NCBI GenBank assembly: GCA_020080175.1
Contig: JAGHQL010000240.1
Span: 1-30,666 of the forward strand
DNA length: 30,666 nt
Source of the DNA: Glutinoglossum americanum
Taxonomy: Eukaryota; Ascomycota; Geoglossomycetes; Geoglossales; Geoglossaceae
Direction of reading: 5' to 3'
Below are positions 3,159-29,940 of the stretch, in pieces. The translations under genes and the position numbers were made by a program. The notes beneath the pieces were generated by a model, which saw nothing but the letters and a program-made list of their open reading frames with translations, had not been told where the DNA came from and made no database searches. Each line of letters opens with the position of its first letter. Position 1 is the first letter of the stretch.

Positions 3159-3479
3159 TGTCATAGCACATAAAAACAGGGCTTGTAAGCTTAGATCAGT
3201 ATAGAGTCTGTGCTTAAGCCAAGCTCTCAAGCTCCTTTTCTGACCGACAGAGTTGATTCTTCAATCTCTATTGGTCAACACACCTCTTGTATATAGTTCA
3301 TCTAATAGAAGCTATCCCGTGGCCCATATCCATCCACCTACTCAGCCTACCTGCCTCTGACATCCCGCCGGACATCCTGCTGAGCTGTGACACCCATCTG
3401 AGCTCGAGAACTCATTTGCGAGCCCACGAACGACCCCCTCGACCCTTGAGCGCCTGCGGCACCCCCCTAGAACTTGACA
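3159..3479 (+). repeat. Solo LTR inside the NLR pseudogene
   Basis: A 321-bp insertion beginning TGTCA and ending TGACA, flanked by the 5-bp target duplication TGAAG (3154-3158 and 3480-3484). This is the classic mark of an LTR retrotransposon reduced to one LTR by recombination. NLR coding sequence lies immediately on both sides. Its first 54 bases recur inverted at window positions 1-54. Its second half (about 3310-3479) is much GC-richer than the surrounding RIP-damaged gene, which suggests later insertion. No internal region is present, so Gypsy or Copia cannot be told apart. Strand is arbitrary. Confidence 0.85.
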
Positions 3480-4380
3480 TGAAGCAAATTAAACAGTTGC
3501 ATCACCAATATCCAGAACTTTGCCAACAAGTTCTGTTGATCATCATTGCTATGTACTGTCCACTACACCTGCAGGAACTCTACGTCTTATCCAGCTTGCC
3601 TCCTCAAGCCTAGAATGTAAATCAATTCATGATGACAATTATGAAGATGTGTGGCTCATTCCTTACAATATGAGATGACAATATCTACATCATCTACCAG
3701 TCAGCTAAAGAATTTCCATCTGAGGAAACGAGATATGACATTTTCCTTTACGGGATTGCGCATATTCATCATTTCATCTTCTTGAAATCAGTTGAAACTA
3801 TATCGAAGACACTATGACAGGACATCTACAACTTACGCTAACTGGGATATGCCATCGAGTGAGTTGAATAGCTGGATCCAGACTCTTTAGCAGTGTCGCA
3901 CTACTCTTGTATTTATTGAATCAATCACTTGTATGACTACAATCATAACTTTTGTGCAAATCACAGAGTTGACCCGCAGGATGGAGGTGCTGTCCACAAA
4001 TTTCTGAGAATGAAATATCTCTACTAGCTAGAGATTCTCAGCCTTTGCAGAAGCATATCCGATAGGATAGCTTCAATGATAAAACTGGAGATTTTGTTCC
4101 AGGTAGTATTAGATCAGTGATACAATATATAGTTCACGCTAACATAACCTAGGGAAGACCGGATGTATCTGTACTACTTGAGCTGATTCACGATACATAC
4201 CAATTTATTATGTATTTCAAGCGGGCAATTGAGCAGAGTCCTCTTCAGGTATATACGTCTGCACTCGTATTCAGTCCAGCCTGTAGTCTGATAAGAGGCC
4301 ATTTCAAGGAAGAAGAGCCAAAGTGGATGGTGACAAAGCTGGCTATAGAAGATAATTGGAATGCCTACCTGTAGATGCTC

Positions 4381-5136
4381 GAGGGTTATAGTAATTCGAT
4401 CCAATCAGCCACCTTCTCTCCCAACTCCACATAGCTGACATCAGCATCAAGTGACAACACAGTCAAGATCTGAGATGCAAGCAGTGGTGAGTGCTTGCAG
4501 ACACTCAAGGGCCATAGCAGTTGGGTCTGGTCAGTCACCTTCTTCCTCGACTCCACACAGCTGGCATCAGCGTCAAGGGACAACATAGTCAAGATCTGGG
4601 ATGCAAGCAGTAGCAAGTGTCTGTAGATGCTCGAGGGCCATAGCGATTCAGTTCAATCAGCTGCCTTCTTCCCCAACTCTATATGGCTAGCATTAGTGTC
4701 GTGGGATAACACAGTCAAGATCTGGGATACAAGTAGTGACGAGTGCCTGCAGACGCTCGAGGGCTATAGTAGTTTAGTCCACTCAGCTGCTTTCTCCCCT
4801 GACTCCACACGGCTAGTATCAGTGTCGTGAGACAACACAGTCAAGATCTGGGATGCAAGTAGTGGCGAGTGCCTATAGATGCTCAAGGGCCATAGCAATT
4901 CGGTCTACTCAGCTGCCTTCTCCCCTGACTCCACATGACTGGCATCAGCGTTATGAGACAACATAGTCAAGATCTGGAATACAAGCAGTGGCGAGTACCT
5001 GCAGACGCTCAAGGGCCATAGCAATTCAGTCCACTCAGTCACCTTCTTCCCCGACTCCATATGGCTGACATCAGTATCATGAGACAACATAGTCAAGATT
5101 TGGGATGCAAGTAATGGCGAGTGCCTGCAGACACTC
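4381..5136 (+). repeat. Six tandem 126-bp WD40 repeat units
   Basis: Units start at 4381, 4507, 4633, 4759, 4885 and 5011, exactly 126 bases (42 codons) apart. Each encodes one WD40 blade of the form G(H/Y)S..V.SA.FSPDST.LASAS.DNTVKIWD. The constant spacing and high similarity are typical of the rapidly evolving WD40 arrays of fungal NWD/HNWD genes, where units are exchanged by recombination and change binding specificity. Differences between units are largely transitions. Six blades is slightly short of a seven-blade propeller. Confidence 0.9.
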
Positions 5137-5674
5137 AGTATTGGCAAGGCTTTCTTTAATATATCGATTGATGCTACTAGCTTATATCTTCATACTGAAA
5201 TTAGTACTATCATTATTGATGCATCTACAACTTCAAATATAACATCAAATATTGCAGATTTACAAAGTTCTCAATATAGAGGCTGGGGCTTAAGTTCAGA
5301 TAGAGAATGGATAATGTATGATTCAGAGAATTTGGTGTGATCACCTTCCAAGTATCGGCCATCATGTTCAGCGGTATCAGAGAATATTATTAGTATCGGT
5401 GTTAGATCTGGAAGGATATGAATATGTAACTTCAATATTAAAACCTTTACAGTTCTTTGAAGGGTGATGTGCAGTAACTAACTAATTATTTTATTATTAT
5501 AACTCTATTTTATAGAGTGGTCTGGGGGTAAGCACAAATATATAGTTCGGTAATTCACCACAGTGATAAACGAAGCTTCTAGATTTTTTTAGATTGATAT
5601 GATAAAGATTTTCTAAGTAACAGAACTATGTATCTCTAAGCTTTATGACTTGCTAGTTAGTCTCCTTGATCATG

Positions 5675-18432: not shown

Positions 18433-20536
18433 ATGAGTGACTGGCACATGGCGACTCCTGATGCTCAGCAACAAGATGGCTGTGGATCGTGCCCTCACGC
18501 GAACCAGCCCGCCCCCTCCGGGGCAGCCCCTCTCGAGTATGAGCAGAAATCCCCCGCCAACTTCACCTCATCTCCGGTTACCGGATACCCCACCTATCTT
18601 GGCCTCTCTGCCCAGGCCGAAAACCACTGGCCTGGCGACCATACACCATGCGCTGGCCCTACCTCCTCCTGTAGCTTCTCCTCATCCTCGCTGCGATAAT
18701 TGCCATCTCCCTTCTCACGAAGTACTCCACCACCCGCCACGGCTTCTCCGAACGCCTCTTGCCGGCTGGTTCCTCATGGATAACCGCCCTATTCAGGATT
18801 TTACCTGCCGCGATAGGTTTGGGTTTCAGGATGGCGTGGGGGAATATCGACAGGGATTTTGAGAGACTGACACCGTTTATCAATATGGTAGATCCGGGGG
18901 GTGGGAAGGGTGCATGGTGTGGCTTGGGTAAAGGAAGGAAGAGTAAGTTTCCTAGGGCGAGGGGGAAAGAGTCGTTGTTAGTGGAAAATTTCCCGTATCT
19001 GCATTATTTCATGGATTTCTATCCGGCTTTTTAAGGCCATTTTGCGGTTGCGACGTCGTCTTGGATGTTTATTTTGCTGGGGCCTTCGATCTTCTTGCAA
19101 TCGGTCCCTTTTACTCCGCGAACATCAATCCTTCCGACACCCTTGACGGAAGAAATGGCCCGCAATTGGAACGCATTGTAGACTGGCAGCAGCATCTTGA
19201 CAGTGTATATTCCACTCCCCTCGCACAAAAACTGGCCTGACCATCACAGAGCTTGATCTCATGTTAGATCCCTCGGTCGAGTTGGCGAGGAAAAATAGAA
19301 GATGGTGGGGAGGCCTATGGAGCGCATTGTCGTATGTTCTTGTTAGCAACAAGACAGGTACGACTATGGAGGCTCCAACGTATCTGGATCAGTGGCGGGC
19401 GGAGACAGTGGTTTTGCACACTGGACTTGAATGTGAGCCGGCTCTTTCGATGGGGTGTGCTACATCGCCGTGCTCTGCGGCGGACTTGGACTCCTCTCCG
19501 TCCTGCTCATGAAAAGATACCACGCCACTGGTTTAAGATTCGACATTACCACAGTTGGAATAGCAGGATTGATGTTGCTCCTGCATCGAAGTGGGAGGGT
19601 GCTGGAAGAGGATTTCAAGGACTTGGATCAGTCGACTAAGAGGGGTCAGCTGGTGGAGAGGCTGGGGGAAAATATCTATCAGTTGGGGTATTGGCAAGAT
19701 GAAAAGGGCGTATTCTGGGGGATCTCCGGTGAGGCGGGGGAGACAGGGGGGGCGTTGATGCAGCGTAGTGAGAAACCCTTGGCTGTCCAAGTAGCAACTA
19801 CCTGGTGGTGTTAAATATTGACCAGACAACAGGTGAAACCCCACGGATACCTCTAGAGAAGCTCCCACGGTTTTGCCACCGCAGGCCCGACCGGATCTGG
19901 GCATCGTCTCCATAGCCATCCTCCTAAGTATAGCTATAGCTTTCGCGGGAGTTTGTCTGACCCTCGCTGTTGAGTCCCGCAATCACCAAGGCATCAGCCC
20001 GCGAGCCGACCTATCAGCACCCTGGAAGCTCGCACTGCTCTGGTTCGCCTCGCCGATGGACCTCACAATCTACATATTCAACTTGTGGTGGTCAGTGCTG
20101 GACATGCATTTCCGCTGCACGCAACCCTTCGTTGACATGATCGCGACCAAAACCGCATGCGAGACCATCGCAGCTGATTACTGCACCACCCCAGCACTTC
20201 TTCTGCCATTTATCGCGGCGAAAAAGGAGAATTGGAGGTGGTTCCTCGTCTCGTCTGTATCCATTCTCATGCCCATCATGATCAGCATTGCAGGTTCGCT
20301 ATTCATCTTTAAGACCCCTACCATGGCTACATCAGCGAAATTCGCTCATACACGTCCGTGGAAGACGGGCTCCTTTACAGCGCCAGATCTAGAGCCATAT
20401 CTGTATCAAGTAGCGAATAGCCTCAACGGGGGGGGGGGGGGGGGGGGGGGGCCCCCCCCCCCCCCGGGGGGGTGGGGGGGTGTTTCTCCCCCCCTCCCGG
20501 GGGCCGGGGCCCCCCCCCCCCCCTTCNNNNNNNNNN

Positions 20537-20581
<45 letters not shown>

Positions 20582-20588
20582 GGGGGGG

Positions 20589-20624
<36 letters not shown>

Positions 20625-21803
20625 CGCATGCCCACATGGACTGATTTGACGGGGTTATATCGCCCTATCGAGACGTCTGGGGGCGCCTACCCTCGATTGG
20701 CCTAACGACCTATTTGGAAGCTCGATACAGAGAGAGTCACGGCTAACCTTACTAGTTGTGTCATCCCAGACATCGGCACGGATGTGGTCGTTCAGTCTAC
20801 CAGAGTTCAGCTCGATGGCCGCGAGGGAGACGCGATTGAATCCGTGAACTTACGGGAAGGGAGCTGCTCATTGGGATTGAGGACTACCGTCACGTCGCCC
20901 TGTAGCCGAGCTAGCAGTTATCTCACCGCAGGTAACCCGAATTATGTCTGCTCCTCCTGGAAATTATTCCCGCTGTTAGGAGGCTGCGACTATGATGGCT
21001 GGTGGTGGATCTGCTGGCAGTCCGGTCGAGTCCTTGGCCGCAACACTGCCGGCCTTCCAATCTTCGCTTCAGCGCCGCCTCCCATATCCGCCTCCCTCAT
21101 CCGCGACACCTCCCTCCGTCTGGCTGCAAGACGTAACGATCTCCGTGTCGTCCAGTTCCAAAATCGCTAACGAAGCAAACGTGACTGTTAATCACAGGAA
21201 GCTCTTCGACAGTGTCCACAGAGGGTACAGAGAACTATTTAATTTGGAGCTGAATAGCTCCCTATCGAAGACAAACTGGAGAATGACGGGGTGGATATTA
21301 TGGGGGTGTTGGTGGGGGGCTCGACTCCAGATAGAACAGAGCTTGGATCGCAGAGCGGGCTGGAAAGGGCAGCATCGATAGCGTATTCGAATGTGTCTGC
21401 CACACATGCCCGCATCAACGGGGCCATATGGCCTCCTCCCAGCCCCACCAGCGGCATAACAACCATCACCGGCACCATAACCTGGACTTCCTTTCGCGTC
21501 TTCGTCCAACTCCACTCCCTCGCCCTCTACATCTTGTGCCTCCTTACCTTCACCCTCACGACCACCGCCATCTTCCCAGAACTAAAACAGCGACGCCTTC
21601 CCCGGTGGGCATCGTCCCTCGCGAACACGGTGACGTATTTTTATAGGAGTCCCGGGATTTTGGATGATTTTTTGCGACCGGGTGGGGAGGAGGTAGGGAG
21701 GAAGGAGGTGGCGAGGAGGTTGGAAGAGAAGGGGAGGAGATATGGGTTTGGGGTGGGGTTTGTTGGGATTACGGAGGCGGTGAGGGATGGGTTGGGAGAT
21801 TAG
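18433..21803 (+). pseudogene. DUF3433-like multi-spanning membrane protein, broken
   Basis: The layout matches fungal DUF3433 proteins (large membrane proteins of unknown function): a polar N-terminus from the ATG at 18433, then WRPYTMRWPYLLL and a hydrophobic helix LLLILAAIIAISLL (about 18670-18715), then a W.NIDRDFERLTPFINM segment near 18840. A second copy of this pattern, WWSVLDMHFRCTQPFVDM near 20090, implies two DUF3433 units. Other likely membrane segments are at about 19060, 19470, 19910 (SIAILLSIAIAFAGVCL), 20250 (SVSILMPIMISIAG) and 21520. The C-terminal part ends at a TAG at 21801-21803. Coding signal jumps between all three frames (for example 19261-19440, 19455-19780, 19800-19860, 19873-20427, 21291-21803), and the first helix is preceded by a stop. 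Unlike the NLR gene it is not AT-rich, so decay is by indels or assembly error rather than RIP. Confidence 0.6.
20428..20624. other. Poly-G/poly-C block with 10-N gap: assembly artefact
   Basis: About 200 bases of almost pure G or C runs surround ten Ns at 20527-20536. Long open frames reading poly-Gly or poly-Pro through it are meaningless. Poly-G of this kind is typical of dark-cycle base calls from two-colour sequencers entering a scaffold gap. The real sequence and its length are unknown, so reading frames before and after cannot be related. Confidence 0.9.
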
Positions 21804-22156: not shown

Positions 22157-22158
22157 TA

Positions 22159-22224
22159 GCGTATGCAAAAATGCGTCGAAACGCCACCATTTCTTGGCAC
22201 CCCTTTTCCGCACTTTTGTTGCTT
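22159..22224 (+). repeat. Left 66-bp terminal inverted repeat
   Basis: Pairs with 25917-25982; the single mismatch lies about 54 bases in from the end. Homology stops at GTTGCTT on both sides. The preceding TA is the target duplication. Confidence 0.93.
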
Positions 22225-22505
22225 TGCCTGGGCCGGAACTTCCTTCAACTACAACTCATCAGCAGCGACATAGCAAGGAGCTGAGGTACTACTATCAGGC
22301 GCATTCTATGACAAGCGTCCTTTGACTACTGTTATTCCTTTTGCCCTAGTGCTGAGGAACCAGTATTGGTAGTAGTACTAAGGTAACAAGCTAGAAGCTA
22401 CTTGATCAGTGTGAGAACCTCTTCTTAACCACAACACATCACTAAGGTTTGTGCACTTCTACTTTTCTATAATTTGCTAATTACTAATATTTACTTTGAA
22501 GGTGA

Positions 22506-23606
22506 ATGAACTCTAGACTACCTATTCCTCATACCTCTCGTGGCTTTTCTAGGCAACTGCGAGTTCGAATTCTCCGCCTCTTGATGCTTGGATGGCCAGC
22601 TCATACTATCGCAGCCGACTGCTGTGTACACCTTTCAACAGTGTATAACCAAGCAAATAATCTCTTTCGATATAGCAGTATCAAGGCACCTGGTCTTCGT
22701 AAACTTGGATGACTTTGGAAGTTTACAACTGCTGATGAGGAAGCTGTATTAGAGCTTCTACTTATAGAGGGATGGCGCCGCCAGGACGAAATCATCTTTT
22801 GGCTCTGGTATGAGTGCAATGTGCTTGTCAACCGGTCTACAATTTCTCAAATATTAAAGAGACGGAAATGGACCCAGAAGAAACTTTGTCAGATCTCTCT
22901 TGGCCGTAGTGAGGACCTGCGTCAAGGCTGGAGAGAGGAGATGCGACAGTATGTTGCAGAGGATCTTGTCTTTTTTGATGAATCAATCTTTAATGAAAAG
23001 ACAGGATGGCGGTATCAAGCCTATGGACCTATAGGGCAAGATATTCGTTATCTAGCCAATACTCAAAGAGGGCAGACATAGAGCATCTGTGCAGCTACAA
23101 CTGTCCACAGCTGGTTACCTTGTACAGGTGTCAAGAAAGGATATTTCTCAACACCTGATTTTCTTAACTGGCTGCGGACTGTATTGCTACCAGCTCTACA
23201 TCAGCAGTCATATCGTCCACAAGTTATTGTAATGGACAACAACTCTACTCACATCGATGAGGTTATTATCAGTACCATTGAGGCAGAAGGCTATATTGTT
23301 CACTTTTTACCTCCCTACTCACCAGATTTCAACCCAATCGAACTTTCTTTCTCAGTATTGAAGGCATGGTTCCAGCGCAATTATGTTTGGACTCGCACAA
23401 ACCATGGAAGCTTTGGAGATTACCTTGTTTGGGCAATTGGTCAGAGTCGCTGTGATCGGTTTGCTCGAGAGCAGTTCCGCTATGCAGCTGGTGGACTCTA
23501 TTTGGAAGAAGGAGAGCTTAATCGCTTTCGGGAATGGCTGCAGGCTTGGGAAACTGCGGAGACAGGAGTAGAGAACTGGGTAAAGGATGCAGAGAGCACA
23601 GTATAA
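22506..23606 (+). pseudogene. Tc1/mariner DD34E transposase, two nonsense codons
   Basis: The enzyme cuts and rejoins the element at TA sites using two metal ions held by a DDE triad. The frame is continuous for 366 codons from the ATG at 22506 to a TAA at 23604-23606, interrupted only by a TGA at 22710-22712 and a TAG at 23079-23081, both explicable as CGA-to-TGA and TGG-to-TAG changes. The N-terminal helix-turn-helix is at FSRQLRVRILRLLMLGW...STVYNQANNL (about 22542-22660). The catalytic residues are the Asp in VFFDESIF (about 22969-22992), the Asp in VIVMDNNSTH (about 23224-23253), and the Glu in SPDFNPIELSFS near 23340. Spacing between the second Asp and the Glu is 34 residues. Length fits the family. 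Without the two stops it would look whole. Confidence 0.88.
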
Positions 23607-23685
23607 GGAAGATGGATTAGTAGATCATATATGAGTATAACTATAACTATAATTATATATATATCAAGTTATTTACATCTATTCA
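23607..23685. terminator. AT-rich convergent 3' region of the two transposon genes
   Basis: Seventy-nine bases separate the stop codons of two genes pointing toward each other. The stretch contains repeated ACTATA and a TATATATATA run, fitting overlapping polyadenylation signals for both transcripts. This is an inference from position and composition. Confidence 0.4.
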
Positions 23686-25836
23686 TTATATGAATCTTTC
23701 TGCCTGCTCTGCCAATGATTTTGCAGCTTCTTCTTCTGCCCTGTAAACCTCTTTAAATGCCCTAAGTTCACTGGCAAAACGTCTTGCAAACCCATCTGAA
23801 ATGCTAGCAGAAATTGCACGCTGATACATTGCACTCTTGCCATCCTCCATCTCCTTGAGATCAGAGACTGTTCAGTCTTGATCTTTAACAATGCGCTTAG
23901 TTCGCTGCCATTTGTCAGCTACTTTTAGTGATTGACCTAAGATCTTAGACTCAAAAAAGCGAGTTAAGATCTGCTAATCATCTAGTACTGTACTGATTAG
24001 ACTAGACTTTCGAGAGGTAAAACACACTTCTGGAGCTGATGTTGATGGCTGGGATTTAGAAACCGAATTATAGCGGCTTGGTATCATAGCAGGAATTGGG
24101 AGCTGTAGAGGAGATTGGTAAAGCTGGTGCTGGAAGCTATATTGAAGTGGCAGTTGAGTCCAGGTAGATCTTCGTATCTCTTCTTCTTCCAACCTCTGCT
24201 GACGAGCTCTATCCTCTACCTCTTTCCGCCATCTTCGCTCTTCTTCCCGCTCCTCTCTACGAGCCCAACGGTCTTCTTCTTGTTCCTCTCGCCGGAACCT
24301 CCTTTCTTCCTCCCGTTCTGCTCTCTGCGTTGCTCAGTCCCGTTCAGTAGCTAGCATATTCTGTAGTTGAGCTTATTTGATTTGCTCCTGCATAGAACCC
24401 AATATTGCTGTCGTCTTTTGTTGGAATGTTCGGCGCATTGATGCACGAGATTCTCGAGTAACCGCCCCTTGAGATGTCTGCCAATAGGTATATATCTTAA
24501 TAGGAGGTGCACTGAGAGTGGCATCTCCAGCAGAGATGGCCTGAGCCCATGACTTGTGCTGGGGAGCTGTAATAGCATAGTGCTGCTTGGGGTTCACCGG
24601 GTCTGGCCAACAAAAGTTATCTTGGTTGGTACAGTCTTTATCCTTACATACATGTTTATCTGCTAACTGTCTTTTGAAATCACCAGCAAGTTGTATCTTT
24701 TTTAGGCGTACAGCTTGCTAGGCCTTCAGCACCGATGTCTGGCTCTTTCTCTTTTTTTCTTAGATAACTGGAGGAGAAGATTGCATTGGAGAGGAGGCTT
24801 CTTCGTCTGCTTCTGGTGCCCTGCGTTTAGGAGGTTGGGACTTGCGAGGCAAGATAGCAATAGATGCTCTAATCTCAATAGTAAGTGATATCTTACTCCG
24901 TGGATGTTGCTCCCTAGTGGCCTCTACCATCTTCAGAATACGGCCAGCTTCTACAAGCCCAAAGTCATCAAGATCATGGACTTTTTGTGCAGTTTTCCTT
25001 ATAGCTGCATGAACGAAAACTGTTCTCTGAAGTACTGAGATAGGTTCTCCGTTTTCTAGGATATCTAAGTCCTGAGCAAGTTTGTCCTCAATATCTGAAA
25101 GATTAAAGTTATCTCTTGTAGTATCAGGTAAGCTCTTTCTTCTTACAAGAGTCTTATTAATATATATCTTAGTATATATTTCGATTGGGTAGTCCACCTG
25201 TGATTGAGCATCTTCGACAATATCTTTGAGATGGTCCTGAATATCTGATGTAGTCAGATCATCAGGATATGCACTTCGGATACCATTTGCAGCTACTTGA
25301 AGTACTTGTTGTATTCGATGATTCTTAAACTTATCAAAAGTTTCAAGAACATCTCGAGTTAGCCGAAGATCTTCATTTTCGTCTTCTTCCCCTTTCTCTC
25401 CATTTCCGCTATCATTAGAGTCTTCTTCCATTACTAACTGTTGAATAGGAGCTCGTTGATGTGCCCCTATTCTCTGCTGCTGTGTGGCTTGAGAAACAAC
25501 ATTCTGAGATATCACTTGTGCCTTCTGCAGCTTAGTTGGAGGAGGGAGTGCTTGTCGTTTGGGCTGTGCTTGCTGTTTAGGCCGCTTGGGAATTGGGGGG
25601 ACTGATGTTGTAGGACCAGTACTTCTAGTTCGATGTTCTGCTTGCTGTCGCTCTTGTTGCTTCTGCTTCGCAAGCGTCAGTAGGCTTTCTTGAAGGATGA
25701 CTGCCTTCTTAGGAGCACTGCGAGGCTGGTACGAGCTTGTACCATCCTCACAAACATAGGGTATATGCACCTTGCGGAGGTCATAGCTTGAGACGGCCTG
25801 GAGGTTGGATGGCTTAGAAGGCTTCTTAGGGGGCAT
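23686..25836 (-). pseudogene. Transposon accessory gene, unknown function
   Basis: Starting from the ATG at 25836 (MPPKKPSKPSNLQAVSSYDL), one frame runs for about 716 codons to a TAA at 23686-23688. The first 358 codons are open, to a TAA at 24760-24762. Five more stops follow in the same frame, all of the CAA/CAG/CGA/TGG-to-stop kind. In order the product shows a Pro/Gln/Lys-rich linker (about 25400-25700), an acidic patch (DSNDSGNGEKGEEDENEDL), an ordered helical part, and a Lys-rich segment. A Cys cluster follows, HVCKDKDCTNQDNFCWPDP (about 24600-24660), then a long Glu/Arg-rich coiled coil (about 24160-24345) and a C-terminal helix ending AEQAERF. I recognise no named domain. Being within the inverted repeats, it is probably a DNA-binding or regulatory helper of transposition, but that is inference. 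Confidence 0.7.
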
Positions 25837-25916
25837 TGGAACTGCTGGAATGAGACTATGAGCTGGTCTTGTCTGTAAGCAGGTGGGTATGGCTTCAAAA
25901 AATCGGCTATACACAG

Positions 25917-25982
25917 AAGCAACAAAAGCGCGGAAAAGGGGTGCCAAGAAATGGTGGCGTTTCGACGCATTTTTGCATACGC
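25917..25982 (-). repeat. Right 66-bp terminal inverted repeat
   Basis: Reverse complement of 22159-22224 with one difference. It is followed by the TA at 25983-25984. Confidence 0.93.
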
Positions 25983-25984
25983 TA

Positions 25985-29172: not shown

Positions 29173-29940
29173 ATGCATCCTGCTTCTATCGAATTGACCT
29201 CCAGGCGGCATGTTGTCCTCCAAACGGATGGTAGAATCCGGATGTCTGCCAGAACACATCTCTCTGACCTGTGTGCTGAGAAGGAAGCTCTGGATCTGGT
29301 TAAGGCGAGTACTTCGGTCCCTGTACCGTGAGTGTACGACTACTATAAATCCGCAGAATTCTTGTTTTGTAAAAGGTGCCTGGTACGATATTGAAGGAGG
29401 CCTGGCCGACATTGGAGGTACACGAAAAGGGATAGCCGGTGAAGTGGCTGCCTTTTTGGGGGAGATACGGAAGTTGCGCTCGCCATACATCCGTGCTGCC
29501 CTCCTCCATAGAGATCCGGCCTTACTGATGCGGCAGGTTTCAATCACGAGAAATTCAAGCAATTCTCCAACAACGAATATACCTCTGCATATATTCAGGC
29601 AAGAACCAACGCTTTACATCCCCATCCGACTGTGTTTACACATGGCGACTTGGACTGGAGCAATCTACCAGTTGTCGACAAGAAAGTTAGCGGAATCACT
29701 GACTGGGAAAGTAGCGGTTATTTCCCAGCTTATCGGGAATGGGTGACGCTCAAGCGGTCTGCAGAAACTCAAACGTCAGACGACTCTTGGTTTCATTTCC
29801 TAGAAAACCGGCTCAGGTCATCTGGGTGCACGCAGTGGGGCGGAATGTGGGAACTAGACCAACTACACAAGGCACTCGAACAGATTACACAATGGGCATT
29901 AACACCAGAAGACCGAGAGGCGAATCGTACTCGTGGATAG
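29173..29940 (+). pseudogene. APH-fold phosphotransferase family, frame-disrupted
   Basis: Fungal proteins of the APH (aminoglycoside phosphotransferase-like) family are kinase-fold enzymes, mostly of unknown substrate. From a possible ATG at 29173 the sequence shows EKEALDLVKASTSVPVP.VYDYY (about 29268-29345), the usual N-lobe pattern. PGTILKEAWPTLEVHEKG follows in another frame near 29370-29425 and GEVAAFLGEIRKLRSPY in a third near 29440-29490. The first frame resumes as FNHEKFKQFSNNEYTSAY. The catalytic loop HGDLDWSNL is at 29641-29667 and the metal-binding GITDWESSGYFPAYREW near 29692. It ends at a TAG at 29938-29940. At least three frame changes and one stop occur, without AT enrichment, so decay is by indels; short introns could explain part of it but I saw no good splice sites. 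Confidence 0.65.

Follow-up and report, generated by a model that had tools for sequence, protein, structure and literature searches.

A broken Tc1-like transposon with a convergent second gene suggests a two-gene lineage in Glutinoglossum americanum

Positions 1-30,666 of contig JAGHQL010000240.1 from the fungus Glutinoglossum americanum (assembly GCA_020080175.1), the whole stretch of DNA analyzed here and hereafter called the window, contain a TA-flanked DNA transposon of 3.8 kb (window 22159-25982; copy C158). The element carries two genes that face each other: a transposase gene on the plus strand and, on the minus strand, open reading frame 2 (ORF2), whose frame of ~2.15 kb opens with an ATG at 25836 and closes with the stop codon at 23686-23688. 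Sequence comparisons indicate that it very probably represents a two-gene IS630/Tc1/mariner lineage in this fungus: ORF2 is found in three copies of the family (C158, C290, and C217), bears the marks of purifying selection, and occurs in the same convergent arrangement in a distant element (C188). Such a two-gene lineage had been put forward in an original prediction made from the DNA letters, and the comparisons support it; the further part of that prediction, that the second protein helps or restrains transposition, is less secure, as none of the searches gave the protein a function. The anatomy on which that prediction was built, comprising 66-bp inverted repeats that differ at one position (65/66), a TA duplication, a plus-strand DD34E transposase, and a minus-strand gene of 2.15 kb, was confirmed in the sequence.

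The element has the features of the IS630-Tc1-mariner superfamily, namely, a TA duplication, terminal inverted repeats, and a transposase with helix-turn-helix (HTH) and DDE_3 domains. In Pfam searches, HTH_23 (1e-5) and the first of two DDE_3 pieces (1.2e-19) scored above their curated cut-offs and the second DDE_3 piece (9.8e-4) fell under it; the NCBIfam IS630 score for the transposase piece of the window was 56, below the cut-off of 100. The second catalytic Asp and the Glu are separated by 34 residues, as in the Tc1-like subgroup, an assignment (DD34E) made from residue spacing. The window copy, as the original prediction did not note, is a dead element in which both genes are broken: the transposase frame contains two in-frame stops, and ORF2 contains six (two TGA, two TAG, and two TAA). 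A chance origin of the arrangement is excluded because both the ends and the genes are found again elsewhere in the genome.

These recurrences were identified by searching the assembly (317 contigs, 25.77 Mb). The 66-bp end matched five places: both ends of C158, both ends of C290, and one end of C283. A looser pattern search, whose counts of terminal repeat sites are lower bounds, found 28 places at three or fewer mismatches, versus 11 for a reversed control pattern, and eight places at no more than one mismatch, which add the second C283 end, C217, and C284 to the first five. At C284, the match covered only 25 to 28 bp of the end, and an element body was not seen; C252, with two mismatches in its end, showed no match to the element copies. 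The genome count with the 66-bp repeat, suggested alongside the original prediction, yields three both-ended copies (C158, C290, and C283), all with TA at their outer edges, plus the one-ended C217. C290 (32789-36526) contains both genes, with DNA identities to C158 of 78% for the transposase and 74% for ORF2, and its ORF2 is open for 710 codons. C217 consists of one end and ORF2 sequence running to the contig end, with an open stretch that matches ORF2 residues 5 to 250. The second gene is present in C158 and C290 and absent from C283, so that the refuting observation named with the original prediction, copies with the same ends but no second gene, was made in part; the family departs from fungal one-gene Tc1-like elements in that two of its three both-ended copies have ORF2, C283 being the one-gene copy. 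Only short fragments lie on C170 and C43 (a 204-bp alignment together with 35 bp from an end, and 73 bp, respectively). Three loci, C248 (L033), C217 (L017), and C241 (L072), lie at contig ends, so assembly breaks may hide further copies.

Pairwise comparisons among the copies indicate that both genes were under purifying selection in the past. Using the Nei-Gojobori method in our own script, we obtained ratios of nonsynonymous to synonymous substitution rates (dN/dS) for ORF2 of 0.19 for C158-C290 (695 codons), 0.22 for C158-C217 (239 codons), and 0.30 for C290-C217 (249 codons); the synonymous rate (dS) is 0.6 to 0.9, which makes single values rough, and all reflect the past history of the copies rather than present-day selection. 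A repeat of the C158-C290 comparison gave 0.194 for ORF2 (bootstrap, 0.15 to 0.24; 700 codons), and the transposase of the same pair gave 0.169 (bootstrap, 0.11 to 0.24; 366 codons). In 300 neutral simulations of the C158-C290 ORF2 comparison with the observed substitution counts, dN/dS ranged from 0.42 to 0.83, above the range of 0.19 to 0.30 seen across copies; purifying selection on the second gene, which had been proposed as a check, is thus borne out. The same simulations expect 21.5 ORF2 stops on average, whereas six are seen. Selection on ORF2 appears to have been about as strong as that on the transposase, which raises the question of why a self-sufficient enzyme would need a partner.

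The transposase is broken in all three both-ended copies: C158 and C290 have stops, and C283 has a frameshift in addition to a stop. One stop occupies the same codon (window 23079-23081) in all three, as TAG in C158 and C283 and as TGA in C290. Because dN/dS is as low after this codon as before it, the stop may be recent or may have been shared through movement in trans. Repeat-induced point mutation (RIP) was considered as a cause of the stops and rejected, the dinucleotide indices being without a RIP signal (composite index, -0.43 to -0.58).

The gene pair also occurs outside the family. Beyond its own relatives, the window transposase matched C188, C263, and C248 at 30 to 50% identity. The C188 element (L031) has TA flanks and 186-bp inverted repeats (96% complementary); its transposase (DDE_3, 1.4e-31; NCBIfam IS630, 112 bits, above the cut-off of 100) is ~30% identical to that of the window family, and convergent to it lies an ORF2 homologue whose single frame is interrupted by three stops. 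A 69-residue C188 ORF2 query against the whole genome matched, at E ≤ 10, only itself, C158 (3.6e-4), and C290 (3.5e-3). The reverse query, with C290 ORF2, returned C290, C158, and C188, the last through two collinear segments with E values of 4.4e-4 and 0.02, ahead of a next match at 1.7. The stretches common to the family and C188 are the Cys/His segment and the C-terminal tail. C248 has a broken transposase that shares ~42% identity with the C188 enzyme and, facing it, a frame in which the Cys/His spacing is repeated. Written from the alignment, the pattern C-C-N-C-H-W-G-T matched C158, C290, C188, and C248 only in 113 kb (11 loci) and gave no matches in 40 shuffles of the 113 kb; the four aligned sequences all agree at seven residues.

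Read by eye, and allowing for a short GT...AG intron at ~3200-3300 (L031), the transposase of C188 would be open, with three stops in its partner; in C290, the partner gene is the open one. A second copy of the C188 element was not seen in the genome, where matches other than its own ends were ~70 to 80 bp only. Among the DDE_3 matches listed in the genome, 32 of 50 were above the Pfam cut-off, many with stops, and several other transposon families are represented; in this survey, the surroundings were read at seven loci only (C158, C290, C283, C188, C248, C263, and C241).

Several results weigh against a two-gene element whose products worked together. No copy was found with both genes intact, and joint function was not observed. 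C283 (~1.42 kb) combines related ends and TA flanks with a transposase gene only, lacking ORF2. When transversions alone are used, the selection contrast is weaker (ratios, 0.46 to 0.52). In C290, none of 88 convertible ORF2 codons has become a stop, versus 4 of 46 in the transposase (Fisher p = 0.013), which could mean that ORF2 was kept for some other reason; C158 shows no such contrast between the two genes. The ORF2 match at C248 is weak (E of 0.07 when seven loci were searched and 0.003 when the search covered 3 kb), this locus is cut by the contig start, and it gave no match to the C188 module and no hit from either genome-wide ORF2 query. Two other Tc1-like transposases have no Cys/His pattern and no clear ORF2 match beside them, at C263 and in the 2.8 kb at the contig end of C241. 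In database searches, ORF2, whole and in pieces, matched no Pfam family over its cut-off, and the whole protein had no match in NCBIfam (E of 1), in PHROGs (E of 0.1), or among PDB sequences (E of 1). Single-sequence folds were poor, with predicted local distance difference test (pLDDT) values of 53 for the C-terminal region and 43 for the central region.

The one-gene copy C283 is probably a deletion derivative that lost ORF2, although the trace of the event is suggestive only. Its transposase differs from that of the window by 17.0%, and the C290 transposase differs from the other two by 24.3% and 22.6%; with C283 nearer the window copy than C290 is to either, one loss in C283 explains the pattern. 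The stretch between the C283 transposase and its right end aligns with the last ORF2 codons (14/15 bases with C158 and 17/21 with C290), scores that were equaled by 167 and 99 of 20000 shuffles of the stretch and by 583 and 105 of 20000 stretches drawn at random from the genome. The C283 junction reads AGCAAC, which is also found at the inner edge of the right end of the window element, and not of C290, as a microhomology deletion would leave. With C188 as the outgroup, few residues were informative (3, 0, and 2 across the possible groupings of the three copies), too thin a basis for a choice.

In its open C290 form, the ORF2 protein has 710 residues; it begins with a basic segment and contains acidic tracts, charged repeats, and a Cys/His module. 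Its layout would run from the basic N terminus through an acidic tract and a helical region to the Cys/His module, followed by a charged stretch resembling a coiled coil and, at the C-terminal end, by another helical region. At E of 0.1, the only Pfam match to the whole protein was a sub-threshold ATP-cone, and Myb/SANT was not matched by the whole protein at this threshold or by pieces at E of 10. A PDB fold search with the C-terminal model gave 109 matches at E of 10 and none at 0.001. A SAM-like C-terminal domain, suspected by impression from a five-helix outline, received no support from Pfam or Foldseek and was dropped. Two collections not meant for fungi yielded pattern matches but no confirmed ones: 42 in IMG/VR with the Cys-module alignment and 444 in GTDB genomes with the ORF2 protein. 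Similar Cys-module proteins probably occur as hypothetical proteins in many ascomycetes. Within this genome, searches that score best candidates only found no host-gene version of ORF2, the matches lying only in the elements and in the C170 and C43 fragments; the possibility raised with the original prediction, that the second gene is a normal single-copy host gene, was not borne out.

On balance, these observations are probably best explained by a dead copy of a two-gene element whose ORF2 protein acted with the transposase and whose short copies are deletion derivatives. The DD34E transposase, encoded by the left gene, would have cut at the inverted repeats and inserted the element at TA, and the convergent right gene would have made a protein of ~710 residues that assisted the transposase, by binding nucleic acid or by oligomerizing, and so raised the element's spread; copies without ORF2 would have arisen from the longer form by deletion. 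Judged by its composition, Cys/His module, position, and selection, the ORF2 product is most likely a nuclear accessory protein that binds nucleic acid or serves in assembly. Whether the protein helped transposition, as opposed to controlling silencing or serving another function, is in our judgment evenly balanced. Together, the data suggest that these elements spread as a two-protein system. A wider view is more tentative, and we lean somewhat against it: fungal DD34E elements may form an old two-protein lineage in which the Cys/His partner was co-inherited across transposases of ~30% identity and one-gene copies depended on a partner made elsewhere.

The main rival, which we consider unlikely, holds that the ORF2 protein is regulatory or anti-silencing and either represses the transposase or shields copies from host silencing. 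Tc1-type transposases generally need no partner, the 1.42-kb copy indicates that ends and transposase can exist without ORF2, and convergent genes could yield antisense transcripts; the searches, with no above-cut-off Pfam domain in ORF2, gave no direct evidence for or against this idea. We see only a slim chance that the open C290 ORF2 was taken over by the host and is maintained for a cellular role as the surrounding transposon decays. Although it has no stops in 710 codons and the adjoining transposase has four, this contrast is weak, comes from one locus, and is not repeated in C158, where ORF2 itself is broken; moreover, the C158-C290 dN/dS sums over all of the past of both copies and says nothing about selection on C290 once it had inserted. 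Least probable, and largely refuted, is that one element captured a host gene once and carried it as a passenger without function for the element. Such a capture would fit the absence of ORF2 from a copy with related ends and the broken ORF2 of C158, but ORF2 is conserved under selection in separate copies (C158, C290, and C217), recurs in the same convergent position in the divergent C188 element, and has no host copy in the genome searches.

Table 1. Coordinates of features of the element in the window (C158)
Feature	Window position	Strand	Comment
TA target-site duplication, left	22157..22158	.	adjoins left end, read from sequence
Left terminal inverted repeat, 66 bp	22159..22224	+	recurs elsewhere in genome
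DD34E transposase pseudogene (HTH_23 + DDE_3)	22506..23606	+	in-frame stops at codons 69 and 192
First catalytic Asp codon (FFDES)	22977..22979	+	read from sequence
Second catalytic Asp codon (MDNN)	23235..23237	+	read from sequence and frame
Catalytic Glu codon (NPIE)	23340..23342	+	34 residues after second Asp
ORF2 (second gene), pseudogene, six in-frame stops	23686..25836	-	70% residue identity to open C290 ORF2
ORF2 Cys/His module (C-x4-C-x-N-x4-C ... HY ... W ... G-x2-T)	24514..24690	-	common to C188 element
ORF2 C-terminal helical region, two stops in C158	23689..24030	-	C290 counterpart matches C188; low-confidence fold
Right terminal inverted repeat, 66 bp	25917..25982	-	pairs with left repeat
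TA target-site duplication, right	25983..25984	.	adjoins right end, read from sequence

The features of the window element are listed in Table 1. About 200 bp between its left end and the transposase (window ~22225-22430) are absent from C290 and C283. A search for subterminal repeat arrays, which would be candidate ORF2 binding sites, found only one two-copy 16-bp repeat in the left end of the window element and none in the right, and the idea was set aside. Elsewhere in the window, a 126-bp unit is repeated in tandem approximately six times at positions 4368-5137 (79% matches) and looks WD40-like by eye. A frame for a DUF3433 protein (19837-20646; 2.1e-13) runs into a poly-G run at 20537-20624, where its translation contains unreadable residues, possibly an assembly gap. 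A further frame (29512-29937) has a weak match to APH phosphotransferase (9.4e-5), whose 22.7 bits narrowly miss the cut-off of 23.2.

Tc1/mariner transposases are textbook self-sufficient, single-protein cut-and-paste enzymes that are widely used as gene-delivery tools, and the Tc1 transposase is said to need no partner in vitro, to judge by the title of a 1996 report by Vos et al. Tc1-like fungal elements, such as impala of Fusarium, have a TA target and an HTH domain. A transposase combined with an element-encoded accessory protein is known from PIF/Harbinger, CACTA (TNPA), and MuDR, which belong to other superfamilies with other target sites, and the accessory protein of PIF/Harbinger carries a Myb/SANT domain. 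The window element resembles these only in how it may work, ORF2 having neither Myb/SANT nor another above-cut-off Pfam domain. ORF2 may be regarded as a new protein module to test, and fungal annotation may label such transposon proteins as host hypothetical proteins. A full-text literature search surfaced no description of this two-gene element; its coverage was partial, so this is not proof of being unpublished.

Passages of PMC5872316, PMC4522978, PMC3864998, and PMC4054914 offered no account of an additional gene in elements of this type. Tc1-MP1 of Mucor has, like the window element, a DD34E transposase within inverted repeats, but it is 1,688 bp long with a single ORF, unlike the 3.8-kb window element with its convergent second gene; in Tc1-OP1 of yeast, an extra domain lies within the transposase protein itself (PMC9977792). 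Tc1-Mariner copies of Cochliobolus measure 1.3 to 3.9 kb, the potentially active ones being single-ORF (PMC4112212), and the elements described from Verticillium are single-ORF (PMC3441728). Fungal Tc1/mariner-type elements with two ORFs include TremE and TremF of Paracoccidioides; unlike the window element, these are 1.9 to 2.3 kb with transposases described as DDD, TremF splits its CENPB and DDE domains over two ORFs, and the second ORF of TremE has 217 residues (PMC2836289). Pogo elements have one or two ORFs, which are said to encode transposases (PMC7386202). The Trem and pogo elements, like the extra proteins of the ciliate Tec/TBE elements, were set beside the window element by description.

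Mariner elements with Fanzor1, endonuclease, or methyltransferase genes share TA flanks and an extra protein beside the transposase with the window element; unlike Fanzor, whose motif ends in a C4 finger and RD (PMC3627910), ORF2 has no OrfB/TnpB Pfam match at E of 0.1. Tec/TBE elements combine a DD34E transposase with further genes, one Tec ORF lying on the complement and one TBE protein being a zinc-finger protein, and purifying selection has been reported for the TBE ORFs (PMC7325037). They differ from the window element in that they have three ORFs and live in ciliates; Tec, in addition, has repeats of ~700 bp and encodes a site-specific recombinase (PMC7325037). Multi-protein Tc1/mariner elements are therefore already known, in the form of ciliate Tec/TBE and Fanzor1-bearing Mariner elements.

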